Source: Butyrivibrio sp.
GTDB taxonomy: Bacteria; Bacillota; Clostridia; Lachnospirales; Lachnospiraceae
Reading direction: 5' to 3'
Length of the DNA stretch: 64,000 nt
Assembly: GCA_017535785.1 (NCBI GenBank)
Contig: JAFXTN010000037.1
Coordinates: forward strand, 62,001 to 126,000
The translations under genes and the position numbers were made by a program. Shown here in pieces: positions 28,027 to 43,343 of the stretch (its first letter is position 1; each line of letters opens with the position of its first letter). The notes under the pieces were generated by a model. That model ran no database searches, was not told where the DNA came from, and was given only the letters and a program-made list of their open reading frames with translations.

Positions 28027-28091
28027 TCAATCATCAAATAAAACAAACCAAACCACTAAAACAAAAAATGATGATAAAGGAGAAAACAATT

Positions 28092-29027
28092 ATGGCAGAC
28101 ATCAAAGAAAGCGCATTAGATCTTATCGGAGGAACACCTCTTCTTAAACTTAACGGCTACAGCAAGAAGGTTGGAAATACAAACGCAACGATCCTTGCAA
28201 AGCTTGAGTATTTAAATCCCGCAGGATCGGTTAAGGATAGAGTAGCACTTAGCATGATCGAGGATGCTGAAAAGAGCGGAAAGCTTAAACCCGGAGCAAC
28301 AATCATCGAGCCCACAAGCGGAAACACAGGAATCGGACTTGCAGCAGTTGCAGCAGCAAAGGGATACAAAGCAATCCTTACACTTCCCGATACGATGAGT
28401 GTTGAAAGAAGAAATCTCCTTAAGGCTTACGGCGCAGAGATAGTTCTTACAGAAGGCGCTAAGGGAATGAAGGGAGCTATCGCTAAGGCGGAAGAGCTTG
28501 AGAAAGAGATCGAAGGATCATTGATCCTCGGACAGTTCGTTAACCCTGCAAACCCTGCGATCCACAAAGCAACAACAGGTCCCGAGATCTGGGAGCAGGC
28601 AGGCGGAAAGGTTGATATCTTCATCGCAGGCGTAGGTACAGGCGGAACAGTAACAGGTGTTGGTGAGTACCTCAAGGAGCAGGATCCTAACGTTAAGGTT
28701 ATCGCAGTTGAGCCCGCTACAAGCCCTGTTCTTTCAAAGGGCGAGGCAGGACCTCACAAGATCCAGGGTATTGGTGCAGGATTTGTTCCCGACACACTTA
28801 ATACAAAGGTTTATGACGAAGTAATCGCAATAGATAACGAAGATGCATTCAAAGAGGGAAAGAACTTTGCAGTTTCAGAGGGTATCCTTGTAGGAATCTC
28901 CTCAGGTGCAGCACTTAAGGCTGCTACAATCGTTGCAGCAAGACCTGAGAATGCAGGAAAGAATATTGTAGTTCTTCTTCCCGATTCAGGTGACAGATAT
29001 CTTTCTACACCTTTGTTTGCAAACTAA
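28092..29027 (+). CDS. cysK: Cysteine synthase A
   Basis: A 311-residue PLP enzyme making cysteine from O-acetylserine and sulfide. The PLP lysine is in NPAGSVKDRVALSMI, the substrate loop is PTSGNTGIGLAAVAAAKGY, the phosphate-binding loop is GVGTGGTVTGVGEYL, and SSGAALKAA is near the end. It starts at ATG 28092 after AAAGGAG. The promoter carries the LysR-type element described at 27963-28026. A second, divergent copy lies inside the nitrogenase-like cluster (34130-35128). Confidence 0.96.
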   Translation: MADIKESALDLIGGTPLLKLNGYSKKVGNTNATILAKLEYLNPAGSVKDRVALSMIEDAEKSGKLKPGATIIEPTSGNTGIGLAAVAAAKGYKAILTLPDTMSVERRNLLKAYGAEIVLTEGAKGMKGAIAKAEELEKEIEGSLILGQFVNPANPAIHKATTGPEIWEQAGGKVDIFIAGVGTGGTVTGVGEYLKEQDPNVKVIAVEPATSPVLSKGEAGPHKIQGIGAGFVPDTLNTKVYDEVIAIDNEDAFKEGKNFAVSEGILVGISSGAALKAATIVAARPENAGKNIVVLLPDSGDRYLSTPLFAN

Positions 29028-29095: not shown

Positions 29096-29135
29096 AGATC
29101 GCTGGTCATCATATATGACAAGCGATCTTATTTTA
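29096..29135 (+). terminator. Terminator of cysK
   Basis: AGATCGCTGGTCAT (29096-29109) pairs with ATGACAAGCGATCT (29115-29128), one mismatch, followed by TATTTTAA. This rules out the in-frame ATG at 29115 as a start for the next gene. Confidence 0.9.
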
Positions 29136-29171
29136 AAAGAGGCTACGACCAAACAAAAGGAGTGTATTCTC

Positions 29172-30362
29172 GTGGGAAGATACGATTTTGACAAGATATA
29201 TGACAGACGCGGCACAAGCAGTCTGAAATATGATTTCGGGATAGAGAGAAGGAGAAGAGACGACCTGCTTCCTTTGTGGGTTGCTGATATGGATTTCAGG
29301 CTCCCGGATGAAATACTTGATGACATCAAGTCAAGGGTCGACCATGGAATATTCGGATATACAGACCCAAAGGAAGATTACAAAAGAGCTGTAGCAAGCT
29401 GGTACAGAGAAAGACACGGCTTTGAAACCAAGGATGAATGGATCACGGTTGTGCCGGGGATAGTGTACGCCATCGCAGTTGCTGTGAGAGCTTTTACAGA
29501 GCCGGGTGAGAGCGTGCTCATACAGGAACCTGTCTATTATCCTTTCAGTGAGACAGTGGAACTAAATCACAGGAAGCTTGTGAACAATCAGCTTGTTAAT
29601 AAAAACGGACACTATGAGATCGACTTTGAGGATTTTGAGAAAAAGATCGTTGATGAAAAGGTTAAGCTATTTCTTTTGTGCAGTCCTCATAATCCCGTGG
29701 GAAGAGTGTGGACCAAAGAAGAACTTACAAAAATTGCAGATATATGCTTAAAGCACGACGTCACAATATTTGCGGATGAGATCCATTCTGATTTCGTTTA
29801 TGAGGGATATAAGCACACTTCCTTTATGACTTTGGATGATAAATACAAAGAGAAGCTGATCCTTGGAACATCACCAAGTAAGACCTTCAATATAGCGGGG
29901 CTTCAGATCGCCAATATCATCATTCCAAACAGCACATTGAAGGATAAATTTGATCTTGAAAACGGAGCGGGAGGCTACAGTCAGTGCAATGTGCTTGGGC
30001 TTGTCGCTACAAAAGCCTGCTATGAAAAGGGAAAGCAGTGGCTTGATGAACTCATTGATTATCTTGAAGGAAATATAGATTACGTCAGGAATTTCATAAA
30101 AGAAAAACTTCCTAAGGTTAAATTCACAGAGCCGGAGGGCACATACCTTGTATGGCTTGATTTTTCTGAGGTTACCGATAACTACAGGGATTTAAGGAAT
30201 CTTATCGAAAATGAGGCCAAGCTCTGGCTTGACGGAGGAGTGATCTTTGGAAGGGAGACAGCTCTTTTTGAAAGAATAAATATAGCAAGTCCAAGAAGCA
30301 TAATAGAAAAGGCAATGGAACAGCTATATGAGGCATATGAAAAGAGATATGGCAAGGACTGA
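29172..30362 (+). CDS. MalY/PatB-type cystathionine beta-lyase (PLP aminotransferase fold)
   Basis: About 396 residues of fold-type I PLP enzyme. It has WVADMDFRLPDEILDDI, VPGIVYAIAVAVRAFTEPGE, LLCSPHNPVGRVW, TIFADEIHSDFVYEGYKH and the PLP-Lys segment TSPSKTFNIAGLQIANIIIP. This is the PatB/MalY clade of C-S lyases that split cystathionine to homocysteine, pyruvate and ammonia. I choose GTG 29172 (AAAGGAG 9 bases upstream); upstream in-frame ATG 29115 falls inside the cysK terminator. It is co-directional with the cystathionine synthase/lyase gene 46 bases downstream. Confidence 0.88.
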   Translation: MGRYDFDKIYDRRGTSSLKYDFGIERRRRDDLLPLWVADMDFRLPDEILDDIKSRVDHGIFGYTDPKEDYKRAVASWYRERHGFETKDEWITVVPGIVYAIAVAVRAFTEPGESVLIQEPVYYPFSETVELNHRKLVNNQLVNKNGHYEIDFEDFEKKIVDEKVKLFLLCSPHNPVGRVWTKEELTKIADICLKHDVTIFADEIHSDFVYEGYKHTSFMTLDDKYKEKLILGTSPSKTFNIAGLQIANIIIPNSTLKDKFDLENGAGGYSQCNVLGLVATKACYEKGKQWLDELIDYLEGNIDYVRNFIKEKLPKVKFTEPEGTYLVWLDFSEVTDNYRDLRNLIENEAKLWLDGGVIFGRETALFERINIASPRSIIEKAMEQLYEAYEKRYGKD

Positions 30363-30408: not shown

Positions 30409-31587
30409 GTGAGTACGGAAAATGGCTGTATACTACAAGAAAAATACAGTGCTGATACCAAGTGTCAGCTTAGCGATACGGGATTAAAAGATGTGTGGGG
30501 CGCTGTCAGCTATCCTATTTATCAGACGGCGACATTCGCGCACAAGGGGCTTGGAGAGAGTACGGGATTTGATTATACAAGGCAGCAGAATCCCACGAGG
30601 CAGCAGCTTGAGTCTGTTGTAGCTCTTTTGGAAAACGGAAAAGATGCGATCGCATTTTCAAGCGGAATGGCTGCAGTTGCGGCTGTGATGGAGCTCTTTT
30701 CCCCGGGAGATCATTTTATTATCGATTCGGATCTCTATGGCGGAAGCGTAAGACTCTTTAATGAGATAAGCAGAAAGAACGGACTTTCATATACCGCTGC
30801 GAATCTGAGCGTTGACGATGTGATCCCTCTTATTAAAGAAAATACCAAGGCGGTCTATATAGAGACACCGACCAATCCGATGATGAACGTTACGGATATA
30901 GAGAAATTGGCAAAAAAAGTACATGATAAAGGCTTGATACTTATTGTCGACAATACTTTTCTTTCGCCTTATTTCCAGAATCCGCTAGATCTCGGAGCTG
31001 ATATAGTTATCCATTCGGGGACAAAGTTTCTGGGCGGCCATCATGACACGATAGGCGGATTCGTGGTCGTAAATGATAAAGAACTTGATGAGAGGCTTCG
31101 ATTTATATATAAGACAACAGGTGCCGGTTTAAGTCCTTTTGACAGTTGGCTGATCTTAAGGGGAATAAGGACACTGTCCGTGAGGCTTAACAAAGCGCAG
31201 GAAAATGCATTTGCAATAGCTGAACACCTTAAGAAGAACAAGCATGTGACCAAAGTTATCTATCCGGGACTTAAAGAACATCCCGGTCATGAGATCATGA
31301 AAAAGCAGGCACGAGGCTTTGGCGCGATGCTCACCTTCGAGGTCGACTCAGCAGAGTTTGCAAAAGAGATTCTGGCAAACGTAGATCTTATTTATTTCGC
31401 AGAGAGCCTTGGAGGAACTGAGACACTTATTACTTATCCCATAACTCAGACACATGCGGATGTACCCGCGGACGTTCTTGAAAAGAATGGAATAAACGAC
31501 CGTATTCTCAGACTTTCTGTGGGAATCGAGGGCATAGAAGATCTGATTAACGAGTTCGAAAGAGTGTTTAAAAAAGCGGAGGGATAA
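30409..31587 (+). CDS. Cystathionine gamma-synthase/lyase family enzyme
   Basis: A 392-residue Cys/Met-metabolism PLP enzyme. Motifs are YPIYQTATFAHKGLGESTGFDYTRQQNPTR, FSSGMAAVAAVMELF, IVDNTFLSPYFQNPLDLGADIVIHSGTKFLGGHHD (PLP Lys in SGTKF) and LSVGIEGIEDLINEF. Sequence alone does not separate synthase from lyase. Pairing with a MalY-type lyase suggests transsulfuration from cysteine to homocysteine, i.e. MetB-like. GTG start with AGGAGG. Confidence 0.88.
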   Translation: MSTENGCILQEKYSADTKCQLSDTGLKDVWGAVSYPIYQTATFAHKGLGESTGFDYTRQQNPTRQQLESVVALLENGKDAIAFSSGMAAVAAVMELFSPGDHFIIDSDLYGGSVRLFNEISRKNGLSYTAANLSVDDVIPLIKENTKAVYIETPTNPMMNVTDIEKLAKKVHDKGLILIVDNTFLSPYFQNPLDLGADIVIHSGTKFLGGHHDTIGGFVVVNDKELDERLRFIYKTTGAGLSPFDSWLILRGIRTLSVRLNKAQENAFAIAEHLKKNKHVTKVIYPGLKEHPGHEIMKKQARGFGAMLTFEVDSAEFAKEILANVDLIYFAESLGGTETLITYPITQTHADVPADVLEKNGINDRILRLSVGIEGIEDLINEFERVFKKAEG

Positions 31588-31593
31588 GTTTTA

Positions 31594-31689
31594 TTTATAC
31601 CCTGCTATAAATTATAAGTGTTTTACAATGGCAGCGAACTAAAGCATAATGCATATAACGTCATTATTAAAACCTACTTACCGAGTAGG
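31594..31689 (+). promoter_or_regulatory. Promoter of the nitrogenase-like operon: LysR-type element and downstream operator
   Basis: TTTATACCCTGCTATAA (31594-31610) matches 16 of 17 bases with the cysK site at 27970-27986. CTATAA starts at 31605; TTTACA at 31622-31627 fits a -35, and CATAAT (31645-31650) is the -10, 40 bases after CTATAA. Downstream of the predicted start lies CCTACTTACCGAGTAGG (31673-31689), an inverted repeat related (14 of 17) to 38633-38649. That form resembles Rrf2/CymR-type operators, by inference only. Confidence 0.65.
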
Positions 31690-31725
31690 GAGATGGGTTA
31701 TAAAACAGGCGAGGAGATAAAGTTT

Positions 31726-31884
31726 ATGGCAAAGGCAGAAATACCAAAGACTACAGAAGTCGATGAGGCTATTTTGGAAAGCATAGTTGATAGCATCAAA
31801 AGTATACAGTATGGCACGATAACAATAACAGTACACGATGGCAAAGTAACTCAGCTCGAGACAAGCCGTAAACAGAGATTCTGA
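31726..31884 (+). CDS. yezD: YezD-family small protein (DUF2292)
   Basis: A 52-residue protein: AILESIVDSIKSIQYGTITI, VHDGKVTQLETSRKQRF. This short beta-hairpin family (YezD) is repeatedly found beside sulfur-assimilation genes in Firmicutes; biochemical role unknown. ATG 31726 has GAGGAGA upstream. It is the first gene of the nitrogenase-like operon, 14 bases before nifB-like. Confidence 0.85.
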   Translation: MAKAEIPKTTEVDEAILESIVDSIKSIQYGTITITVHDGKVTQLETSRKQRF

Positions 31885-31898
31885 GAGGAGATTTGATC

Positions 31899-32771
31899 AT
31901 GGCAAGAACATATGAAGAGCTTGAGAAAAACCATCCTTGCTTTGGCGGATGTAAGTTCAATGCGGGAAGAATTCATCTTCCTGTAAGTCCCGGATGTAAC
32001 ATAGCTTGCAGATTTTGCGACAGGACAATAAATGATGTCGAGCAAAGACCGGGCGTAACTTCTAAAGTGATATCCCCTGACGAAGCAAATACATTTATAG
32101 ACAGAGCACTTGGATTTGTGCCGAACATCAAGGTGGCAGGAATTGCAGGCCCCGGCGATACATTGGCGACGGATTACGCTTTTGAGACTTTTAAAAAGAT
32201 CGGAAAAAGCCATCCGGAACTTCTAAAGTGCATGAGCACCAACGGACTTCTTTTGTATGAGAAGGCGGATGAACTGATAGATATCGGAATCGATACACTA
32301 ACGGTTACGGTAAATGCAGTTGATCCCAAGATCGAAGCTAAGCTGAATGAATATATCATCTGGCACGGCGAGAAGATATACGGAGAGGAAGGCGCAAAGA
32401 TTCTTATCGAGAATCAGCTCAAAGGAATCAAGAAGGTCGCAGATGCGGGAGTGACGCTCAAGATCAACACCGTTCTCGTACCGGGAATAAATGATGAGCA
32501 CATAGCTACCATCGCTAAGACGGTCAAAGAAGCCGGAGCGCTGATGTATAACATTATTCCGCTGATACCGCAGCATCAGCTTAAGGATATACCAAAGCCG
32601 ACATGTGAGCAGATAGAAAAAGCCAGAGAGGATGCGGAGCAGTACATCAAAGTGTTCAGACACTGCGCACACTGCCGTGCAGATGCGGTCGGAGTTCCGG
32701 GAATGAGCGAGTACAGCAAGCTCGTATACCAGAGCAGAGTTAACGTAAGGAATACATTTTCACATGGATAA
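31899..32771 (+). CDS. NifB-like radical SAM cofactor-maturation protein
   Basis: About 290 residues. HPC at residues 12-14 and the radical-SAM triad CxxxCxxC at Cys33-Cys37-Cys40 (GCNIACRFCDR) are present. The NifB-specific C-terminal FRHCAHCRADAVGVPG is also present (NifB proper: RHCRQCRADAVG). This means ligands for the SAM cluster and at least part of the two substrate clusters that fuse into NifB-co are kept. It lacks the fused NifX domain, but a separate NifX-like gene overlaps its end by 8 bases. Role: likely builds the 8Fe core for the NifDK-like enzyme encoded downstream. Start ATG 31899, GAGGAG 8 bases before. Confidence 0.9.
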   Translation: MARTYEELEKNHPCFGGCKFNAGRIHLPVSPGCNIACRFCDRTINDVEQRPGVTSKVISPDEANTFIDRALGFVPNIKVAGIAGPGDTLATDYAFETFKKIGKSHPELLKCMSTNGLLLYEKADELIDIGIDTLTVTVNAVDPKIEAKLNEYIIWHGEKIYGEEGAKILIENQLKGIKKVADAGVTLKINTVLVPGINDEHIATIAKTVKEAGALMYNIIPLIPQHQLKDIPKPTCEQIEKAREDAEQYIKVFRHCAHCRADAVGVPGMSEYSKLVYQSRVNVRNTFSHG

Positions 32772-33138
32772 AGCAGTTTACAGAGTCGCGCTTGCATCTA
32801 CTGACAACCGATATGTAGATCAGCATTTCGGAAGAGCTGAAAGCTTTTTGATAGTTGATGTTGATGAGAACGGCGACTATGAGGAAATTGAACAGCGTTT
32901 TGTGATTCCGGTATGTGAAGGCGGGCATCACAACGCTGAGAAATTAAAAAGAGGAGTAGATGGCGTTGCGGATTGCAATTTCGTTCTGGTAGCCAAGATC
33001 GGAGGCGGAGCGATGGGCGAACTCGAAGACAGAGGAATCGCAGCATTTGAAATGCCGGGACCCGTAGATGCGGCGATAAAAAAGCTGGACGGGTACCTCA
33101 GATTACTTAAGGAAATGAACAGCATAAGCGGACAGTAA
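32764..33138 (+). CDS. NifX/NafY-family cofactor-binding protein
   Basis: A 124-residue protein of the dinitrogenase iron-molybdenum cofactor-binding family: VALASTDNRYVDQHFGRAESFLIVDV at the start, CEGGHHNAEKLKRGVDG with adjacent His, and GIAAFEMPGPVDAAIKKL. Such proteins carry NifB-co or the finished cofactor. The overlap with nifB-like suggests hand-over of the nascent cluster. It starts in the last codons of the previous gene and is followed by a structured leader before nifH. Confidence 0.85.
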   Translation: MDKAVYRVALASTDNRYVDQHFGRAESFLIVDVDENGDYEEIEQRFVIPVCEGGHHNAEKLKRGVDGVADCNFVLVAKIGGGAMGELEDRGIAAFEMPGPVDAAIKKLDGYLRLLKEMNSISGQ

Positions 33139-34092
<954 letters not shown>

Positions 34093-34129
34093 TATATACA
34101 GAAGGATTCAGACTTAAGGAGGAAAAGGT

Positions 34130-35128
34130 ATGTCACGCGTATACAAATCTATTACAGAACTTGTGGGAAGAACACCGCTATTAGAGCTTTCAGGATATGA
34201 GAAGAAACATAATTTGAAGGCAAATATTATCGGTAAGCTTGAGTATTTTAATCCCAATCAGAGTGTTAAAGACAGGATTGCTCTTGCGATGATCGAAGAG
34301 GCTGAGAAGAGCGGCAAGCTTAAACCCGGCGATACAGTAGTTGAGACAACAAGTGGTAACACAGGAATCGGACTTGCGGCTATTGCGGCAGCTAAGGGAT
34401 ATCCCTTCAGAGTATATATACAGGATCAGGTAAGCAAGGAGAGATTCCAGGTAATACAGGCATTTGGCGGAAAGACAATAAAGCTTGGTGAAGAGCCCGT
34501 TATTGCAAAGGTACTTGAAGAGACAGGCGGAGACTTCGTTGCTGCAATCAAGGCGCTCAAGGAACAGGTTCTTGATAAAGAGGAAAATGTAGTATTTCTT
34601 GACCAGTGTTCAAACCCTGCAAACCCCGCAGTTCATAAGAGAACAACAGGTCCCGAGATCTGGGAAGATACAGACGGACAGGTTGATATCCTTGTAGCCT
34701 GTGTAGGTACAGGCGGAACTGTTTCAGGAACAGGTGCTTATCTCAAGGAAAAGAATCCTAACATAAAGATAGTTGCTGTTCAGCCCGGACCCAACTCACT
34801 TCCGGATGCAGATAAGAATCCTCCGGAGGAAGAGATAACAGGAGTACATCCTTTTGAAGGAGTTCCCGACAATCTTGTTCCTGCAACAATGGACAGAAAT
34901 ATCTATGATGAATATCTCGAAGTAGAGGCGCTTGATGCATACAATGCAGCAAGAGAGCTTGCTGCAAACGACGGTGTTCTTATCGGTACATCATCAGGTG
35001 CGGCTCTCCATGCAGCAAGAGTATTGGCAGAAAGAGAAGAGAATAAGGGCAAGAAGATTGTTGCTGTATTCCCTGACACAGGACTTAGATATCTTTCAAC
35101 CAATCTTTTTGCTAAGGCTCAGGATTAA
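34130..35128 (+). CDS. Cysteine-synthase-like enzyme embedded in the nitrogenase-like operon
   Basis: A 332-residue fold-type II PLP enzyme, divergent from CysK at 28092. It keeps the PLP lysine (NPNQSVKDRIALAMI), ETTSGNTGIGLAAIAAAKGY and VGTGGTVSGTGAYLKE. It carries an extra loop GPNSLPDADKNPPEEEI (about residues 222-238) before GVHPFEGVPDNLVP. Position between nifH and nifD, with a 37-base gap on one side and 39 on the other, shows tight co-expression. Possible roles are trapping sulfide or a thiol released by the reductase onto O-acetylserine, or a dedicated substrate. The exact substrate is unknown. Confidence 0.85.
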   Translation: MSRVYKSITELVGRTPLLELSGYEKKHNLKANIIGKLEYFNPNQSVKDRIALAMIEEAEKSGKLKPGDTVVETTSGNTGIGLAAIAAAKGYPFRVYIQDQVSKERFQVIQAFGGKTIKLGEEPVIAKVLEETGGDFVAAIKALKEQVLDKEENVVFLDQCSNPANPAVHKRTTGPEIWEDTDGQVDILVACVGTGGTVSGTGAYLKEKNPNIKIVAVQPGPNSLPDADKNPPEEEITGVHPFEGVPDNLVPATMDRNIYDEYLEVEALDAYNAARELAANDGVLIGTSSGAALHAARVLAEREENKGKKIVAVFPDTGLRYLSTNLFAKAQD

Positions 35129-35167
35129 ATAGGATTTTGACATAGTTTATATAGGAGAAAAGAAATA

Positions 35168-36637
35168 ATGGCAACGAATTTAAATAACTCCAATGTGGCT
35201 ACCAGAGAGGCCAGGATCGGCTCTATAACAGGTTACATCGGATCGCTCAAGGATCTTGCAAGTCAGAGCGAATGTGGAACACTTAAAGGATGTTCAAGAT
35301 GTTTTTCACAGTCAAGCTCTTGTCTTTCAAGCTGTGCCCTTGGTCAGCTTTCTGCGATAAGAGACATCGCCATCATTCATCACGGACCTGCAGGCTGTTC
35401 GGTCGCGGCAGCAGGTACATATTACCTTGATAAGGTTATGGCCAAAAAGCGTGGTGTTACCAATGATACTGTCTATGTTGGAACAGATATGAATGAGAAT
35501 GACACTATCTTTGGTTCAACCAATACTCTTAGAAATATCATTCTGGAAGTAAACAAAAGATACAGCCCCAAGGCTATTTTCGTATCAAGCTCCTGTGCAA
35601 CGGGAATCATCGGAGAGGATATCGACAGTATTGTGGATGAGCTCAAAGATGAGATTCAGGTTCCTATAGTTGCGGTTCACTGTGAGGGATTCAAGTCAAG
35701 AATCTGGGCAACAGGATTTGATATTGCAGACCACGCGGTTCTACAGTCTATTGTTAAACCGCCAAGAGAGGGAGTAAAGAGCAACAAGATTAACTTCAAG
35801 AATTTCTATGAGAGTGCAAGACCTGAGATCATAGAGATGTTCAAGGAATTTGATCTTGAGCCGACATTCCTTTACTGTAACTCTACTATTGAGGAGCTTT
35901 CTCACATATCTGAAGCAGTAGCTACCACATGTATCTGCGGAACACTTGGTAACTATCTTGGAAACGTACTTGAAGAAAAATACGGCGTTCCTTATGTAAG
36001 AAGCATCAACCAGTGCGGTATCGTAGGTTTTGAGGCTTGGCTTCGCGAGATAGGTAAGGTTACAGGCAGAAGTGAAAAGATAGAAAAGTACATTCAGGAG
36101 CAGAGAGCAATCTATCTTCCCAAGATTGAGGAAGTTAAGAAAGAGCTTAAGGGACTTAGAGCAGTACTCGGTATGGGACCCGGATATACATTCGAGGTAT
36201 CCCGTGTTCTTAACGAACTTGGCATTGAGGTTGTATGGGCTCTTGCATGGCACTATGACAAGAAGTATGAGAACGGAGATGTACCTCCTTCAATGAAATA
36301 TCTTCTTGATAACAATATTGATTTCGAGGCCAGTGTTGCGGATCAGCAGAACTTCGAGGTTATGAACATTCTGAACAAGTATCAGCCGGATCTGTATCTA
36401 TCAAGACATCCCGGTTCAACTGTTTGGGCAATCAAGAACGGAACACCTTCTGTATATGTTGCGGATGAGTATATGATCTTCGGATACAAGCACACACTTG
36501 AGTTTGCATATTCAATCCTTGACAGTATCAGAAACAGAAGCTTTGAGCAGAATCTCGCAAAGAGAACAAAGCTTCCTTATACAGATTGGTGGTACAAACA
36601 GAATGTAGGAGAGTTCCTCGTTCAGGACAAAGCATGA
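35168..36637 (+). CDS. NifD-like catalytic subunit (MarD-like)
   Basis: A 489-residue component-1 protein. P-cluster ligands align at Cys56 (SSCALGQ), Cys77 (HHGPAGC) and Cys143 (SSSCATGIIGED). Cys257 (TCICGTLGNYLGNVLEEKYG) aligns with the cofactor cysteine 275 of NifD by identical spacing to the KYG-V/I-P segment. The position of NifD His442, after the GxP turn, appears to be Ala here (GTPSVYVADE). An unusual N-terminal cluster of Cys36, 42, 45, 52 and 56 is present. These features place it among nitrogenase-like enzymes with a NifB-derived cofactor, best matched by the methylthio-alkane reductases. By inference it reduces an organic sulfur compound rather than N2. Confidence 0.82.
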   Translation: MATNLNNSNVATREARIGSITGYIGSLKDLASQSECGTLKGCSRCFSQSSSCLSSCALGQLSAIRDIAIIHHGPAGCSVAAAGTYYLDKVMAKKRGVTNDTVYVGTDMNENDTIFGSTNTLRNIILEVNKRYSPKAIFVSSSCATGIIGEDIDSIVDELKDEIQVPIVAVHCEGFKSRIWATGFDIADHAVLQSIVKPPREGVKSNKINFKNFYESARPEIIEMFKEFDLEPTFLYCNSTIEELSHISEAVATTCICGTLGNYLGNVLEEKYGVPYVRSINQCGIVGFEAWLREIGKVTGRSEKIEKYIQEQRAIYLPKIEEVKKELKGLRAVLGMGPGYTFEVSRVLNELGIEVVWALAWHYDKKYENGDVPPSMKYLLDNNIDFEASVADQQNFEVMNILNKYQPDLYLSRHPGSTVWAIKNGTPSVYVADEYMIFGYKHTLEFAYSILDSIRNRSFEQNLAKRTKLPYTDWWYKQNVGEFLVQDKA

Positions 36638-36656
36638 TTCACGGAGGCTGATTTAA

Positions 36657-37955
36657 ATGGCAAAGTTACTTGATAAACAAAGATATAAATGTGCGCTGGG
36701 TGCAATGCAGACAGTGCAGGCAATTGAAAGAGCTATCCCTATTCTTCACTCCGGCCCCGGATGTGCTCAGAAGCTCTCTGACGGAAACGGAAGCAGCGGA
36801 TACTTTTCACCAAATATTTTTCCATGTACAAGTATCAATGAAAAAGACGTTGTATTCGGCGGTGTAAAAAAGCTTCATTCAACCATCGATAATGCGCTTA
36901 AGGTCATCGATGCGGACATGTACGTTGTACTTACAGGATGTATCCCCGAGATTGTAGGTGATGATTCAGGAGAAGTTGTATCTGAGTTTGCAGATGCGGA
37001 TAAGCCTGTAATCTATGCTCCTACAGCAGGATTTAAAGGAAACAACTACAAGGGACATGAGCAGATTATTGATGCGATCATTGACCAGTACATAAAGAAG
37101 ACTGATAAGAAGGAAAAGGGTCTTGTAAATATCTGGGCTGACGTTCCTTATCAGGATCTTTACTGGCTTGGAAACTTAAGAGCACTTGAGAAACTGTTAA
37201 AAGAGATAGGTCTTACACCTAATACTATATTTGGATATCAGAGAGGAATAAAGAACGTAGATAAGATTGCCTCTGCTGAGTTTAACCTTCTTGTTTCTCC
37301 TTGGGTTTCACTCAAGAATGTAAAGAAGCTTGAGAAAAAACTCGGAACACCTTATCTTCACTACAATACACTTCCTATCGGAGCTTTCGAGACAAGTAAA
37401 TTCCTTAGAGAAGTAGGAAAGTTTGCAGGAGTAGATGAGAAGCTTGTAGAGGATGTTATAACAGAGCATGAGAATTATTACTACTATCTCATCGAGAGAT
37501 TTGCGGATCTGTTCCTTGAGAACCGAGTAATCAACAAGCAGTTCTCAGTTGTTGCTGATGCTCAGTATGCTCTTGGCATCACCAAGTTCCTTACAAATGA
37601 TCTGGGACTTGTGCCTGCTAAGCAGTTCATTACTGATGATACTCCCAAGGAGTACAGAGAGGCTATAACAGAGGAGTTCAAAAAGCTCAACTACGGTCTT
37701 GAAGCAGAAGTTGTATTTGAGACTGACGGCTACAAGATCCATGAAGAGATAAAGAGCCATGACTATCATGGATATCCGCTTGTTCTTGGCGGCTACTATG
37801 ATAAAGAAGTAACTGAGGATCTTAAAGGTAACTTCCTCAACATCTCATGGCCCGTTAAGGACAAGATAGTTCTTAATGATGCAATTGTGGGTTACGAAGG
37901 CGGTATCAGACTTATCGAAGATATCTACACCGTAGCATCACAGAGATTTAACTAA
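36657..37955 (+). CDS. NifK-like subunit (MarK-like)
   Basis: A 432-residue partner of the NifD-like protein. Cys12 (YKCALGA), Cys36 (HSGPGC) and Cys95 (VLTGCIPEIVGDD) match the three P-cluster ligands of NifK with nearly the same spacing (24 and 59, against 25 and 58). The chain is shorter than true NifK (about 520) because the N-terminal extension is missing, as is usual in nitrogenase-like enzymes. It is separated from the nifD-like gene by 19 bases with its own GGAGG site. Confidence 0.85.
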   Translation: MAKLLDKQRYKCALGAMQTVQAIERAIPILHSGPGCAQKLSDGNGSSGYFSPNIFPCTSINEKDVVFGGVKKLHSTIDNALKVIDADMYVVLTGCIPEIVGDDSGEVVSEFADADKPVIYAPTAGFKGNNYKGHEQIIDAIIDQYIKKTDKKEKGLVNIWADVPYQDLYWLGNLRALEKLLKEIGLTPNTIFGYQRGIKNVDKIASAEFNLLVSPWVSLKNVKKLEKKLGTPYLHYNTLPIGAFETSKFLREVGKFAGVDEKLVEDVITEHENYYYYLIERFADLFLENRVINKQFSVVADAQYALGITKFLTNDLGLVPAKQFITDDTPKEYREAITEEFKKLNYGLEAEVVFETDGYKIHEEIKSHDYHGYPLVLGGYYDKEVTEDLKGNFLNISWPVKDKIVLNDAIVGYEGGIRLIEDIYTVASQRFN

Positions 37956-38011
37956 GGCGACGACACAGTTCTGCCATAAACTGTTGTTTCTAAATTGATA
38001 GAGGTAAAGCG

Positions 38012-38494
38012 ATGTCATATTTGATTGCCGTCGCAACATCAAATGCCAAGGACGTAGACCTTGGCTTTGGTGCTGCTAGGGGGTTCCATATCTACGAAGT
38101 AGACGGAACCGATTATAAAGAAAAAGAATACAGAGAGTTTGTTGAAGACGAAAACATTAATGCAGGAGTACAGAATAAGAGCGAGACTTCTGATACTCAG
38201 ATAAGCGGATGCGCAGGAGCGCAGAACGGTTGCGGCGACGGTTCCCAAGGAGGTTGCGGCGGAAACGGTGGCCACGGCGGCTGCGGAGGTGGCGACGGAG
38301 CGCTTAAGAAAGTCGAACTTATTTCGGATTGCCGAAGCCTTGTCTGCAAGAAGATCGGATTCCAAGCACAAAAGCAGCTTGAGAAAAAAGCCATTGCGGG
38401 ATTCGATGTAGAGTGCAGCGTTGATGAAGCAATCGTCAAGATAGCAACGTATTTCAACAAGATAGACAATCATATAAGTCTAAGAAGAGGGTAA
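38012..38494 (+). CDS. NifX-like protein with Cys/Gly/His-rich insert
   Basis: A 160-residue protein of the NifX/NafY-like fold split by a low-complexity insert. The start SYLIAVATSNAKDVDLGFGAARGFHIYEV and the end AIAGFDVECSVDEAIVKIATYF are NifX-like. Residues about 66-97 contain five Cys, one His and runs of Gly (GCGDGSQGGCGG, NGGHGGCGGGDG). Such an insert could bind iron or nickel, or a cluster. It is the last gene of the nitrogenase-like operon, followed by a strong terminator. The metal-delivery role is inferred. Confidence 0.78.
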   Translation: MSYLIAVATSNAKDVDLGFGAARGFHIYEVDGTDYKEKEYREFVEDENINAGVQNKSETSDTQISGCAGAQNGCGDGSQGGCGGNGGHGGCGGGDGALKKVELISDCRSLVCKKIGFQAQKQLEKKAIAGFDVECSVDEAIVKIATYFNKIDNHISLRRG

Positions 38495-38506
38495 GAAAAA
38501 TATAGG

Positions 38507-38546
38507 AAGAGCAAAGTCGGTGTAAAAACCTGCTTTGCTCTTTTTT
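38507..38546 (+). terminator. Terminator of the nitrogenase-like operon
   Basis: AAGAGCAAAG (38507-38516) and CTTTGCTCTT (38533-38542), followed by T-run. Confidence 0.92.
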
Positions 38547-38568: not shown

Positions 38569-38656
38569 CTATAAGCAATCTTTAATTTTCGCTTCCGTTT
38601 TCGTGTGTTATTATTCAATCAATACAAATTACCCTATTGACCTAGTAGGTAAAAGG
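38569..38656 (+). promoter_or_regulatory. LysR-type promoter and operator of the TauT-type transporter/cooS operon
   Basis: The 24 bases from CTATAAG at 38569 match 20 of 24 with the cysK site (27981). TATTAT (38609-38614) is the -10, again 40 bases after the C of CTATAA, and TATKATTCAATCA follows in both promoters. CCTATTGACCTAGTAGG (38633-38649) matches the yezD operator in 14 of 17 positions and sits at a comparable distance downstream of the -10. Confidence 0.65.
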
Positions 38657-38679: not shown

Positions 38680-39636
38680 ATGAAAAAACACCTATTATTA
38701 ACAATACTTATCATATCAGTGCTTGCACTCTTTGGATGTGGAAATACCAATGGTAATGGTTCGGATACCGGCTCCGGAGGAGGCAGTGCTAAGGCAGAAG
38801 AGACAGTAAAGATAGCTTATCTTCCCATAACACATTCACTTGCCGTGTTGGAAGAAGCAGATGAACTTGCAAATAATGACAAGGTTAATGTTGAACTTGT
38901 TAAATACGGATCCTGGCCCGAACTTTTGGATGCACTTAATTCGGGTAAGGTTGACGGAGCATCGGTTCTTATAGAGCTTGCAATGAAATCAAAAGCTGAA
39001 GGCGTAGGTATCAAAGCTGTTGCTCTCGGACATAAAGACGGAAATGTTCTCATTGTTTCTAATGAAGTTAAGGACGGAGCAGACTTAAAGGGAAGAACAA
39101 TTGCAATTCCGCATCGCCAGTCTTCACATAATATTTTGGTAAATGATGCACTTGCAAAGAACGGACTTACTATCGATGATATTAACGTCGTTGAACTTGC
39201 TCCGACAGAAATGCCGTCTGCGCTCGTTACGGGAACAATAGACGGTTACTGCGTTGCGGAACCTTTCGGTGCCGTAGGTGTTTCGACAGGAAAAGCAAAA
39301 GTACTGTATACCTCTGAGGAGCTTTGGGAGAATTCGATTTGCTGCGCACTTGTATTAACGGATGATTTTATAGATAAGCATGCGGATACAGCCAAGGCTT
39401 TTGTCGAAGGTTACAAGACAGCGGGTAATAATCTTGATGCCGAAGCAGCTAAGAAGATTGCGGGAAAATATCTTAAGCAGAAAGACGATGTACTTGAAAC
39501 TTCTTTAAAGTGGATTTCTTATGACGACCTTGATATCACAGAGGAACAGTATAACAAGCTCGTTGATAAGGTTAAAGAATATGGGCTTTCTGATAATCCG
39601 CCTGCATACTCTGATTTTGTAAAGACAGATTTTTGA
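38680..39636 (+). CDS. NitT/TauT-family substrate-binding lipoprotein
   Basis: A 318-residue lipoprotein (lipobox LFGCGNTNG, Cys near 20) of the SsuA/TauA type. It has VKIAYLPITHSLAVLEE, YGSWPELLDALNSGKVDGASVLIELAMK, RTIAIPHRQSSHNILV and TIDGYCVAEPFGAVGV. These proteins bring in sulfonates, taurine, nitrate or similar anions. With a cysteine-type promoter and cooS in the same operon, an organosulfur substrate for the nitrogenase-like enzyme is the attractive guess. Ligand not determined. Confidence 0.88.
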   Translation: MKKHLLLTILIISVLALFGCGNTNGNGSDTGSGGGSAKAEETVKIAYLPITHSLAVLEEADELANNDKVNVELVKYGSWPELLDALNSGKVDGASVLIELAMKSKAEGVGIKAVALGHKDGNVLIVSNEVKDGADLKGRTIAIPHRQSSHNILVNDALAKNGLTIDDINVVELAPTEMPSALVTGTIDGYCVAEPFGAVGVSTGKAKVLYTSEELWENSICCALVLTDDFIDKHADTAKAFVEGYKTAGNNLDAEAAKKIAGKYLKQKDDVLETSLKWISYDDLDITEEQYNKLVDKVKEYGLSDNPPAYSDFVKTDF

Positions 39637-39686
39637 TTATATTACTTGTGATTGTTTAGTTACCGGGTAATAAGTAAGGGGACCTG

Positions 39687-40448
39687 ATGAAAAAATTACT
39701 CTCTATTAAATATGTTGTTGTATCGATACTTATATTATTGGGAATTTGGCAGCTTGCATTTACTGTAAGCGATTACAGTTCGGCTCTGTTTCCGTCACCT
39801 TTGATGGCAATTCAGGCTTTGGGCGAAATGATAGCTGACGGAACGCTCATAGCTTCTATAGCCGCAAGTATGTACAGATTTGTGATAGGTTATGGATTAT
39901 CGGTTTTAATAGCAGTCTTTCTTGGACTTATCCTAGGAAGCCTTCCGAAGGTTTTTAATTATGTTAATCCTTCGCTTCAGCTACTCAGACCGATATCTCC
40001 GACAGCGTGGATGCCATTTGTGGTGCTTCTGTTTGGAATAGGAGATCTTCCTGCTATTGTAATCATTTTTATAGCAGCGTTTTTCCCGGTACTGCTTTCT
40101 ACGGTATCAGCTGTAAGTAAGATCGACGATATGTACTTCAGAGTTGCGGATAATTTCGGAATCAGGCAGCCTCAGCTTATGTGGAAGGTGATCCTTCCGG
40201 CGGCATTCCCTCAGATTGCAAATGCAGTTCACCTTGCGCTTGGAAGTGCATGGATATTCCTTGTTGCCGGCGAGATGGTAGGCGCGCAGTCAGGACTTGG
40301 TTTCCAGATCATTGATGCGAGAAACAATATCAGAGCTGACATTCTTTTGGCGACAATACTTGTAATAGGGCTTATAGGACTGCTACTGGATTTCCTTATC
40401 GGTCTCTTGGAAAAAAGAATTCTTAAAGCCTGGGGAGGTGAGCAGTAA
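39687..40448 (+). CDS. NitT/TauT-family ABC permease
   Basis: A 253-residue permease with six membrane segments and the SsuC/TauC motifs LRPISPTAWMPFVVLLFGIG and ADNFGIRQPQLMWKVILPAAFPQI (the EAA loop contacting the ATPase). Its TAA shares one base with the ATG of the ATPase gene (TAATG). Confidence 0.9.
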   Translation: MKKLLSIKYVVVSILILLGIWQLAFTVSDYSSALFPSPLMAIQALGEMIADGTLIASIAASMYRFVIGYGLSVLIAVFLGLILGSLPKVFNYVNPSLQLLRPISPTAWMPFVVLLFGIGDLPAIVIIFIAAFFPVLLSTVSAVSKIDDMYFRVADNFGIRQPQLMWKVILPAAFPQIANAVHLALGSAWIFLVAGEMVGAQSGLGFQIIDARNNIRADILLATILVIGLIGLLLDFLIGLLEKRILKAWGGEQ

Positions 40449-41221
40449 TGTCATATATTCATATAGAAAACGCAGGAAAAACCTTCATACAAAACGGCGC
40501 GGAATTCACGGCTTTGTCGGATGTAAATCTTGATATTGAAAAAGGCGAGTTTATCTGCCTTTTGGGACCTTCGGGCTGCGGAAAAAGTACGCTTTTAAAT
40601 GCTATCGCAGGTTTTGATCCCGTTAATCACGGAAGCGTTAAGATAGATGGAAACGAAGTAACCGCGCCAAGTACAAAGAATGTTACCATATTTCAGAACT
40701 ACGGATTACTTCCGTGGCGCACTGTTATCAAAAATGTCGAGCTTGGTCTCGAATCAAAAGGAATAGATAAAAAGCGCAGAAAAGAGATTGCTAAAGAGTA
40801 TCTTAAACTTGTGAAGCTTGAAAATTTTGCAAACAGTTTTCCAAGACAGCTTTCGGGAGGTATGAAACAGAGAGTCGCTATAGCCAGAGCTCTGGCTGTG
40901 GAACCTGATATCATCTTCATGGATGAGCCTTTCGGAGCGTTGGATGCAATTACAAGAATGAAGCTTCAGGATGATATTCTGGATATCTGCAAAAACGAAA
41001 AGAAGACTATCATCTTTGTGACGCATGATATTGAAGAAGCAGTTTATCTTGCGGACAGGATAGTTGTGATGACACCTAATCCCGGCAAAGTAAGAGGTGT
41101 GATCACGGTTCCGATTCATCATTTCAGAGACAGAACAAGCGGAGACTTTTTGCTGATAAGAGACAAGATCTTCGATCTGCTTCAGATGAAGGTAGAAGAA
41201 GATATTGAATATACAATTTAA
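40448..41221 (+). CDS. NitT/TauT-family ABC ATPase
   Basis: A 257-residue SsuB/TauB-like ATPase: Walker A LLGPSGCGKSTLLNAIAGFD, Q-loop IFQNYGLLPWRTVIKNVELG, signature LSGGMKQRVAIARALA, Walker B IIFMDEPFGALDAITR, switch VTHDIEEAVYLADRIVVM. It is coupled to the permease gene by a TAATG junction and followed 22 bases later by cooS-like. Confidence 0.93.
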   Translation: MSYIHIENAGKTFIQNGAEFTALSDVNLDIEKGEFICLLGPSGCGKSTLLNAIAGFDPVNHGSVKIDGNEVTAPSTKNVTIFQNYGLLPWRTVIKNVELGLESKGIDKKRRKEIAKEYLKLVKLENFANSFPRQLSGGMKQRVAIARALAVEPDIIFMDEPFGALDAITRMKLQDDILDICKNEKKTIIFVTHDIEEAVYLADRIVVMTPNPGKVRGVITVPIHHFRDRTSGDFLLIRDKIFDLLQMKVEEDIEYTI

Positions 41222-41243
41222 GTTAAGGTTAAGGTAGGAAAAA

Positions 41244-43343
41244 ATGAGTCATACACATTCGCATGAACACGAACATCACCATCATCACGGCAAAAACGGA
41301 CTGTCACATATTCACTCTCACAGAAACCTTATAGGTTTCGATGAGCATGGAATTCCGACAGTGACGCTTAAGGCAAGTGACCATGGCGGAGAGAGCAGTC
41401 CTGAGGATTTTACCAAGGATTACATGAACGCCGTGGCGGAATACAGAAAGACGTTTCCGTCGAAGCAGGATGTGATTGACAATACACCCGATCCCGCCGT
41501 TCGCGAGATGATACTTAGAATGGAGCAGATCGGAATAGATACAACCTTTGACAGATTCGATGCGCAGAAGCCTCAGTGTGCATTCGGACTTAGCGGAACC
41601 TGTTGTAAGATCTGCAATATGGGACCTTGTCATATTACCGCAAAGGCACAGAGAGGAGTCTGCGGTGCCGATGCGGATCTTATTGTGTCAAGAAATCTTT
41701 TAAGATCAGCTGCTTCAGGAGCAGCACAGCACGGTATGCATGCCCGTGAAGTAATGCTTACACTTAAGAAAGTTGCCGAGGGAGAGCTTGATATTCCTAT
41801 TCTCGGAGAGCAGAAAATAAGAAGCACTGCAGAGGCTTTCGGAATAAAACAAAAGAACAGACAGCTTAAAAACGTAGCAAGAGACCTTGCTGATGTTTTG
41901 CTTGAGGATATGTCAAGATCGGTTCCCGATGATTATAAGACGATCAAAGCCTGCGCGCTTCCCGAGAGACAGAAGGTATGGGAGGAACTTGATATTCTTC
42001 CTATCAGTGCTTACCATGAAGTTTTTGAAGCTTATCATAAATCAGGCTGTGCTACGGATGGCGATTGGAAGAGCATAATGCAGCAGTTCCTTCGCTGCGG
42101 TCTTGCATTTACTTTTTCCGGGGTTGTCGGTGCAGGTATAGCAACTGATGCTTTATTTGGAGTAGGTGACAGAGTTACATCCAAAGTTAATATCGGAGCG
42201 CTCAAAAAGGGCTATGTGAATATTGCCGTACACGGACATCTTCCTACACTTGTAAGCCAGATTGTTGCTGCGGGCAAGAGAGAAGATCTGATCGAACTAG
42301 CCAAGTCCAAAGGAGCTAAGGGTATCAGATTCTACGGTATCTGTTGTTCGGGACTTTCAGCGATGTACAGAGACAGCGGAGTTATTCCGCTTTCCAACGC
42401 TGTATCGGCTGAGCTTGTACTTGGAACCGGAGCGCTTGATCTGTGGGTTGCGGATGTTCAGGATGTATTCCCTTCGATCATGGATGTCGCAAAGTGCTTT
42501 AAGACTACAGTTATAACTACAAGTGATTCCGCACGTCTTCCGGGCGCCGAGAGATATGAGTATGACCATCATCACAGTAATATCGGACAGACTAAAGAGC
42601 TTGCCGAGAAGATAGTAAGACGAGCAATAGAAAGCTTTGAGAACAGAAAAGGAATTCCTGTTTATATTCCTCCGTATGAGGTTGAGGCAGAGGTCGGATT
42701 CTCTGTAGAGTATGTTCACAAGAGATTCGGAAGTATGAAGCCGCTCGCAGAAGCTATAAGATCAGGACAGATTCTTGGCGTTGTAAATATGGTCGGATGC
42801 AACAATCCAAAAGTACTTTATGAGAAGTGTATTATTGATGTTGCCGATGAGCTTCTTAAGAACAACGTTCTTATTATCACCAACGGATGCGCATCCTTCC
42901 CGCTTATGAAGCTTGGATATTGTGCAATCTCAGGAAAAGAAAAAGCGGGTGAGTCATTGAGGAAATTCCTTGAACCCGACCTTCCGCCCGTATGGCATGT
43001 AGGAGAGTGTATCGACAATACACGTTCTACAGGTATATTTGCGGGAATTGCAGGTGTGCTTGGAAAGAACCTTTACGAGCTTCCTTTTGCATTTTCATCT
43101 CCCGAGTGGGGCAATGAAAAAGGAATTGATGCGGCTCTTGGATTCAGACTTAACGGAATCAGTTCTTATCACTGCGTCGAGGCTCCGATCTTTGGCTCAA
43201 AGAATGTAATAGAGTTCCTTAAGCATGGTACGAAAGAGTTACTTGGCTCAACAATGAACGTAAATACAGATCCCGTAGCACTTGCCAAGCAGATAGTACA
43301 GGATATGAAGGACAAGAGAAAAACTCTTGGCTGGGATAAGTAA
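41244..43343 (+). CDS. CooS-type Ni-Fe carbon monoxide dehydrogenase homologue with Cys-to-Asp change in the C-cluster
   Basis: A 699-residue CooS-family protein. The D- and B-cluster ligands are complete (Cys112, 120, 121, 124, 129, 140 in CAFGLSGTCCKICNMGPC and the RGVCGAD segment). C-cluster equivalents to C. hydrogenoformans CODH-II are His332 (VHGHLP), Cys367 (GICCSG), Cys519 (VGCNNPKV), Cys549 (NGCASF) and Cys589 (GECIDN), and the acid-base Lys is Lys626. The position of Cys333 (DVQC) is Asp407 in WVADVQDVFPS. The N-terminus is His-rich, a possible nickel store. Co-transcription with a TauT-type importer is unusual and suggests a reaction other than plain CO oxidation. No cooC or cooF gene is seen nearby. 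Confidence 0.85.
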   Translation: MSHTHSHEHEHHHHHGKNGLSHIHSHRNLIGFDEHGIPTVTLKASDHGGESSPEDFTKDYMNAVAEYRKTFPSKQDVIDNTPDPAVREMILRMEQIGIDTTFDRFDAQKPQCAFGLSGTCCKICNMGPCHITAKAQRGVCGADADLIVSRNLLRSAASGAAQHGMHAREVMLTLKKVAEGELDIPILGEQKIRSTAEAFGIKQKNRQLKNVARDLADVLLEDMSRSVPDDYKTIKACALPERQKVWEELDILPISAYHEVFEAYHKSGCATDGDWKSIMQQFLRCGLAFTFSGVVGAGIATDALFGVGDRVTSKVNIGALKKGYVNIAVHGHLPTLVSQIVAAGKREDLIELAKSKGAKGIRFYGICCSGLSAMYRDSGVIPLSNAVSAELVLGTGALDLWVADVQDVFPSIMDVAKCFKTTVITTSDSARLPGAERYEYDHHHSNIGQTKELAEKIVRRAIESFENRKGIPVYIPPYEVEAEVGFSVEYVHKRFGSMKPLAEAIRSGQILGVVNMVGCNNPKVLYEKCIIDVADELLKNNVLIITNGCASFPLMKLGYCAISGKEKAGESLRKFLEPDLPPVWHVGECIDNTRSTGIFAGIAGVLGKNLYELPFAFSSPEWGNEKGIDAALGFRLNGISSYHCVEAPIFGSKNVIEFLKHGTKELLGSTMNVNTDPVALAKQIVQDMKDKRKTLGWDK

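Follow-up and report, generated by a model that had tools for sequence, protein, structure and literature searches.

The systems closest to the locus described here are two nitrogenase-like reductases of sulfur metabolism. The methylthio-alkane reductase MarBHDK of Rhodospirillum rubrum (structures 9FMG and 9D9U) comprises B, H, D and K proteins, with a NifB-type maturase and P-cluster cysteines, and IsrBHDK of Rhodobacter capsulatus joins nitrogenase-like HDK proteins to a radical S-adenosylmethionine (SAM) partner for sulfur assimilation, with sulfite as its product. Dos Santos et al. (2012, PMC3464626) noted that genes for nitrogenase-like proteins with a Cys275-type residue lie close to those for cysteine synthase or O-acetylhomoserine sulfhydrylase, and took the former association to point to sulfur metabolism. 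Here we analyse a stretch of 64,000 nucleotides from a Butyrivibrio sp. genome (GCA_017535785.1, contig JAFXTN010000037.1, positions 62,001 to 126,000, forward strand), called the window throughout, and an operon within it that we name nfl. A first-pass annotation had seen in this operon a probable Mar-type system that reduces an organosulfur compound. Our best reading is a cysteine-coupled sister lineage of Mar, common in rumen-type bacteria, for which a substrate class is all that is predicted. A literature search that covered few subscription papers did not bring up any account of a CysK-coupled sister clade of Mar from rumen bacteria, and in the accessible part of Dos Santos et al. the clade, its ligand loop, the specialised CysK and the rumen distribution are not worked out.

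The nfl operon is real and complete. Its genes, all on the plus strand between 31618 and 38494, follow the order yezD-like, nflB, nflX1, nflH, cysK2, nflD, nflK and nflX2 (Table 1); each is an uninterrupted open reading frame (ORF) with its family assigned by Pfam or NCBIfam, so that the gene set of the first-pass annotation was found at its place with the families described. The residues which that annotation had listed in NflB, NflH, NflD and NflK are kept as well, and are given below with each protein. The yezD-like frame is open from a GTG at 31618, and the ATG at 31726, chosen by reading the sequence, is its likely start. On balance we lean, by a little, towards reading NflHDK as a nitrogenase-family reductase of two components, driven by ATP and belonging to a lineage sister to Mar, that would take sulfur from an organosulfur compound for the synthesis of cysteine.

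The genome is 2.9 Mb long and 90.8% complete, and all genome-wide absences are to be read against that figure. Comparisons were made with 299 genomes of the family and with a scan of named genomes, in which at least 224 loci were confirmed; the counts on named loci come from the best 80, all at least 83% identical. Neighbourhoods were counted over 77 of these 80, the ORF caller having lost nflD in L076, L078 and L090. The named and family loci are related to one another, and the counts are descriptive rather than independent.

Compared with solved structures, NflD is closest to MarD (9FMG, 300 bits, about 34% identity; best nitrogenase alpha chain 120 bits) and NflK to MarK (371 bits; best nitrogenase beta chain 78 bits). 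Residues were mapped with 9FMG numbering, under which those reported in PMC12552129 are recovered. On this map NflD carries Cys52, Cys77 and Cys143 as P-cluster-type cysteines, Cys257 as the equivalent of NifD-Cys275 and MarD-Cys270, and Arg413-His414 as the equivalent of MarD Arg428-His429 on loop I, a loop proposed as a Mar hallmark (PMC12552129). Of six Mar pocket residues, Trp195, Phe199, His375 and Gln74 have equivalents in NflD and His194 and Cys73 do not. NflK has P-cluster-type cysteines at positions 12, 36 and 95, with Cys57 present in addition. The same pattern of four cysteines followed by Arg and His (C-C-C-C-R-H) occurs in 64 of 131 D-type rows besides MarD, near-copies included. 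The operon is probably Mar-like in using a protein-held [Fe8S9C] cluster.

The phylogeny places this enzyme beside Mar rather than within it. Both trees were built by quick searches with support from the Shimodaira-Hasegawa-like approximate likelihood ratio test (SH-aLRT) only, the D tree on 77 of 132 D rows (near-copies dropped) and the K tree on 53 chosen K rows, in which row L188_7107 carries the K of a neighbouring pair and L194_5654 and L187_453 are left out, no K having been called for these D rows. The D tree contains a 40-row superclade with both MarD and the window NflD (SH-aLRT 100), outside which lie the NifD and NifE rows and, far off on long branches, two Isr-type rows. Inside it, the Mar side (23 rows, 99) is separate from the window side (17 rows, 83). 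Likewise, the K tree has a window clade of 11 rows (100) that groups with four relatives (87), while the Mar side (20 rows, 96) stands apart; L192, Mar-side by its D protein, falls outside both K groups. Furthermore, a window-type pair and true Mar-type D proteins (55-58% identity to 9FMG) coexist in G278, so that the two types are paralogues within one genome. Given the separate branches and this co-occurrence, we do not file the operon as Mar. What stands of the Mar-type assignment is that Mar is the nearest relative, that the cluster loop is of Mar type and that the enzyme is by its sequence no nitrogenase; what falls is membership of the Mar clade, of which the operon is a sister lineage.

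The Fe protein also departs from Mar. NflH is NifH-type, with C. pasteurianum NifH (1cp2) as its best structural match at 479 bits, versus 292 bits for MarH, and it keeps Cys97, Cys132 and Arg100. A split in the Fe-protein tree (SH-aLRT 99) puts it with Firmicute Fe proteins of Nif type and of the Mar side, away from the Fe proteins of Isr-type loci; the Mar-side L189 is also on that other side. It is the only NifH-type protein found in the genome (435 bits), the three other PF00142 matches scoring 20-44 bits. NflB has the HPC, CxxxCxxC, ExRP, AGPGD, TxTxNA and CxxCRADA motifs, its SAM cysteines and CxxCRADA being those singled out by the annotation, and matches NifB best (7bi7/7jma, 317 bits). 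The nflX2 ORFs of the named loci carry DCR[CSA][VIL][VIL][CF] in 55 of 57 cases and at least four cysteines before the motif in 56 of 57, and NflX2 is a possible cluster carrier.

With an Fe protein over the nifH cut-off, NifB motifs and P-cluster-type cysteines, the operon resembles the molybdenum nitrogenase NifHDK with its NifEN, and could be a minimal nitrogenase of the kind proposed for Endomicrobium (NfaHDK, group IV-A); incorporation of 15N2 is reported for E. proavitum, which has neither NifE nor NifN (PMC9147875). The catalytic subunits, however, tell otherwise: NflD reaches 139 bits against the 654-bit cut-off of the NifD family model and has no His in the alignment column where NifD rows have His442, the neighbours are sulfur genes, and rumen N2 fixation has been described as negligible (PMC6776011). 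In line with the first-pass annotation, which saw neither gene in the operon, nifE and nifN were not found in the genome: it has no nifD-model match at E <= 1e-100, and both of its DK-type pairs lie outside the NifD/NifE rows. A nitrogenase was thus rejected on sequence, by the score far below the model cut-off, the missing His442 and the lack of a NifEN match, and we give the Endomicrobium-type reading very little credence. The D rows contain no named NfaD (Endomicrobium) or CfbD reference; a place inside Cfb was judged by the CfbD family model alone (TIGR03282), in which NflD scores 56.5 bits versus a cut-off of 268. The operon is probably not for N2 fixation, and would break C-S bonds and feed the sulfur into cysteine.

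The second DK-type pair, NflDK2, lies on contig C4; it keeps the four cluster cysteines without the Arg-His loop, and adjoins a different SsuABC-like importer (SsuABC2) and a MacB/FtsX-like exporter, labels given by reading the sequence. NflDK2 would have to share the sole NifH-type protein found in the genome. This shared Fe protein, and the fact that both pairs are neighbours in some relatives, might suggest that NflDK is a NifEN-like scaffold on which the cofactor for NflDK2 is assembled. The NflD rows nevertheless group with catalytic MarD and not with NifE, and eight of the 22 clade genomes (G276, G171, G068, G279, G129, G266, G097 and G142) have one D and one K match only (E <= 1e-10), some of them drafts of 85-86% completeness. 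Because such single-pair genomes exist, NifEN and a second pair seem not to be required; the scaffold reading is set aside and in our view barely credible.

The distinguishing feature of the clade is its CysK-like partner. The nearest same-strand upstream gene of more than 100 residues is CysK2 at 50 of the 77 loci, CysK3 at 19, nflH at six, and another gene or the contig edge at two. One or other CysK thus stands directly upstream of nflD at 69/77, with a median gap of 17 bases (largest 237), and within 12 ORFs at 72/77. At L081 a 1,072-base gap precedes nflD, where the cysK gene was probably lost to an antisense ORF by the ORF caller. CysK2 and CysK3 are separate divergent groups that fill one slot, as judged from an alignment and a tree printed without support values. 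Both keep the lysine that binds pyridoxal 5'-phosphate (PLP) and the TSGN[T/M]G and GTGG motifs, and differ from CysK1 in the flap and in the acceptor-side loops; the one CysK3 tested scored 254 bits, below the CysK cut-off, as does CysK2, in contrast to CysK1. In four of the five Bacteroidota loci CysK2 adjoins nflDK and in the fifth it lies three genes upstream, with nflH not adjacent; four of the five genomes have a 93% identical nflH elsewhere.

The wider neighbourhood is also one of sulfur genes, in agreement with the first-pass annotation: in the window, cysK1 and MetY exceed their family cut-offs and an NlpA/NIL-domain importer of MetQNI type is present. Over the 77 loci, nflH lies within 12 ORFs of nflD in 64, nflX2 in 57, nflX1 in 54, cysK1 in 50, patB in 37, metC/B in 35, an Rrf2-type regulator in 26, a NifS-type gene in 16 and MetY in nine. 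The label CysE, used for one kind of neighbour, was given by reading alone and has no Pfam match at 1e-10.

Table 1 Features of the nfl operon, its surroundings and related loci. Positions refer to the window unless another locus is named.
Feature	Position	Strand	Assignment and evidence
yezD-like	31726..31884	+	YezD/OscA-like small protein (DUF2292); PF10055 53 bits; OscA model 27 bits, below 85-bit cut-off
nflB	31899..32771	+	NifB-type radical SAM cofactor synthase, no fused NifX domain; TIGR01290 270 bits, below 344-bit cut-off
nflX1	32764..33138	+	NifX-like; PF02579; matches TIGR01290 positions 330-437, the C-terminal part of the NifB model
nflH	33244..34092	+	Fe-protein ATPase, NifH type; TIGR01287 nifH 465 bits, above cut-off of 394
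cysK2	34130..35128	+	Divergent cysteine-synthase-like PLP enzyme; PF00291; 309 bits, below CysK cut-off of 351
nflD	35168..36637	+	Catalytic subunit D; best PDB match MarD 9fmg, 300 bits
nflK	36657..37955	+	Catalytic subunit K; best PDB match MarK, 371 bits
nflX2	38012..38494	+	NifX-like, Cys/Gly-rich linker and DCRxxVC motif; PF02579 38 bits
cysK1	28068-29027	+	TIGR01139 445 bits, over cut-off
patB	29115-30362	+	C-S lyase; TIGR04350 459 bits, over cut-off
Cystathionine-enzyme homologue	30409-31587	+	25 models shown of 42, all below cut-off
MetY gene	11453-12730		Passes family model
Importer/CooS unit	38680-43343		NitT/TauT-type ATP-binding cassette (ABC) importer and CooS
CooS	41244-43343		CooS-type CO dehydrogenase
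NflDK2	contig C4, locus L025, 8330-16290		Second pair; four cluster Cys kept, no Arg-His loop
True Mar-type D proteins of G278	L035 8902-10503; L036 913-2508		

These neighbours bear on whether nfl nonetheless works as a methylthio-alkane reductase, converting dimethyl sulfide, 2-(methylthio)ethanol and the like to methanethiol and a hydrocarbon, with methanethiol passing to methionine via MetY. The shared cluster-binding residues, the highest similarity to MarDK and the MetY gene elsewhere in the window would all fit, and CysK-like genes are also found near some Mar-side pairs. Yet NflD and NflK fall outside the MarD/MarK branch, the Fe protein is not MarH-like, G278 carries a true Mar-type D beside the window type, and MetY comes within 12 ORFs at only 9/77 loci versus 69/77 with CysK2 or CysK3 directly upstream. 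Among Mar-side pairs, a MetY gene is found no more than about five genes away in six of 13 of the 38-46% group, one of five of the true Mar group and none of four of a third group. There is a tendency for MetY to accompany part of the Mar side and for CysK2/K3 to accompany the window clade, but this contrast is not clean. We consider a Mar function unlikely, and since the operon is a sister lineage with a NifH-type Fe protein and a CysK rather than a MetY partner, methanethiol is not the best-supported product.

With CysK2 or CysK3 directly upstream of nflD at 69/77 loci, against 64/77 with nflH within 12 ORFs, the system might also be read in the reverse order, CysK2 joining a thiol such as methanethiol to O-acetylserine and NflHDK then reducing the S-substituted cysteine to cysteine and an alkane. 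The PatB-family C-S lyase nearby would be in keeping with this, as would the known Mar substrates, which are thioethers (PMC12552129). On the other hand, Mar has been described with small, volatile substrates and the scheme is purely inferential; we hold it distinctly improbable.

The level at which sulfur would leave can be approached through the siroheme sulfite/nitrite reductase domain PF01077, which was not found in this genome; the search detected the domain in 11 of 14 control genomes. It occurs in 146 of the 299 family genomes and is rarer with the clade (4/22) than without it (142/277; Fisher p 0.0033, kinship ignored); leaving out the 72% complete G151, the clade count becomes 3/21 (p 0.0011). 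One of the 13 genomes listed as Mar-side has the domain, two of these 13 also carrying the clade. The depletion fits release at the sulfide or thiol level and not as sulfite.

This bears on a sulfonate (isethionate-type) reductase like IsrBHDK, whose product is sulfite. An SsuABC-like importer does lie 3' of the operon, and Isr has been reported from Bacillota including intestinal bacteria (PMC11423573). However, the importer pairs with a CooS gene in a unit seen at 4/77 loci; IsrD is described with one of the three P-cluster cysteines and without Cys275, where NflD has all four, and IsrB is described as sharing with NifB no more than the radical SAM motif (both PMC11423573), where NflB is NifB-type. 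Moreover, the rows of Isr pattern are far away in the D tree, though on long branches. An isethionate reductase was rejected because the cysteine pattern differs, the partner is NifB-type and no sulfite reductase domain was found in the genome; it is in our judgement very improbable. Isr-type pairs, labelled by the cysteine pattern given in PMC11423573, were seen in their own right at L179 (6365) and L185 (7474), with Pro at the third P-cluster position and Asn at the Cys275 position; both adjoin SsuABC-like genes, and PF01077 is present in both genomes.

The cysteine-coupled reductase that we favour would work as follows. NflB would make an [Fe8S9C]-type cluster, with NflX1 and NflX2 as likely carriers, and the cluster would be seated in NflD between Cys257 and His414, as conservation with the MarD structure suggests. 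NflH, driven by ATP, would pass electrons through the P-cluster at the NflD/NflK interface, and the cluster would, by homology with Mar, reductively cleave the C-S bond of an organosulfur substrate. Sulfur would leave as sulfide or thiol rather than sulfite, because no sulfite reductase domain was found in the genome. The neighbourhood and the retained PLP and carboxylate motifs suggest that CysK2 would then join this sulfur to an acceptor of the O-acetylserine type, giving cysteine or a derivative.

Several points weigh against this reading. The mechanism as a whole is read from sequence, with both activity and substrate predicted, and two Mar pocket residues are changed in NflD (His194 to Ile179 and Cys73 to Gly59), so that the enzyme may act on something quite unlike methyl sulfides. 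Support for grouping the clade with its closest relatives is moderate (SH-aLRT 83 for D, 87 for K). PF01077 is present in four clade genomes, G268, G276, G171 and, as a weak match, G151. Finally, the CysK2/K3 link is a trait of the core members and fades at the edge of the clade: in the distant member L187 (68%) the sole CysK-type neighbour is CysK1-like and encoded two genes downstream, and L029 (64%) has no CysK-like gene nearby. Nor is the link confined to the clade. In the Mar-related L037 of the third group a CysK2-like gene (58%) is found four genes upstream, and four of the 13 pairs of the 38-46% Mar-side group have CysK1-like genes close by.

The clade is present in 22 of the 299 family genomes, as 20 full-length matches at 65-100% identity and two fragments, and over 489 residues the window NflD and that of Butyrivibrio sp. 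INlla21 are 100% identical. By record title, the best 80 of at least 224 named loci comprise 68 from Bacillota, seven from Spirochaetota and five from Bacteroidota. The same titles carry RUG or RUI codes in 30 cases, a gut part or an RGIG code in 13 and the word Lapin in nine, with 28 others that include cultured Butyrivibrio; we take the RUG, RUI and RGIG codes to mean ruminant and Lapin to mean rabbit. The high identity across phyla suggests transfer between gut bacteria, with the caveat that bins can hold foreign contigs and that the tree needs only three phylum changes.

Of 501 cultured rumen genomes in one survey, 23% were counted as having nitrogenases, and the same work describes low nifH expression ratios in sheep and negligible N2 fixation in the rumen (PMC6776011). 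Since NflH exceeds the nifH cut-off, nfl operons can be counted as nitrogenase without a nifD-model match, as is the case here, and part of this contradiction may stem from annotation and have a sulfur explanation. A wider proposal is that NflHDK with a dedicated CysK2 or CysK3 forms a cysteine-forming counterpart of Mar, spread in Bacillota, Spirochaetota and Bacteroidota of the rumen and hindgut and behind a good part of the supposed rumen nitrogenase genes; this is tentative and may well not hold. If true, nfl would add to Mar and Isr a third nitrogenase-like lineage that cleaves C-S bonds. Should the enzyme act on methyl-sulfur compounds, methane or other hydrocarbons could also be released, in an environment whose methane is under close study. 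Cultured Butyrivibrio strains are available as test organisms.

The genes 3' of the operon, an SsuABC-like importer followed by a CooS-type CO dehydrogenase, deserve separate mention. The N-terminus of CooS is rich in His, and Asp replaces one of its C-cluster cysteines; NitT/TauT importers have been described as paired with clade B CO dehydrogenases, some with just these two features (PMC6344411). The SsuABC-CooS unit accompanies nfl in four of the 77 loci, many of which end at contig edges. In view of this count and of the known pairing, we do not count it as part of the system or as a substrate importer, and on the same grounds a link from CO dehydrogenase to carbonyl sulfide reduction by NflDK was dropped.

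The cysteine-type promoter of the first-pass annotation was not confirmed: the window has no Rfam match at the gathering threshold, and what was found is a short candidate motif. The genome contains two perfect copies of TANTNACCNAGTAGG, at 31675-31689 and 38635-38649 of the window, one upstream of the nfl operon and one upstream of the ssuABC-cooS operon. With up to one mismatch allowed the motif has seven matches versus 22 for the backwards pattern, i.e. below the control. The looser ACCNANTNGG occurs nowhere in L069 or L070; in L066-L068 it is found upstream of ssuA and not upstream of nflB.

Lastly, MarHDK-like genes have been reported near methyltransferase clusters (PMC10418091). At L187 (2141-3876) a nitrogenase-like pair stands beside genes for an MtaA/CmuA-type methyltransferase and a corrinoid protein, both slightly below their cut-offs, and resembles the mlp clusters described in that paper.

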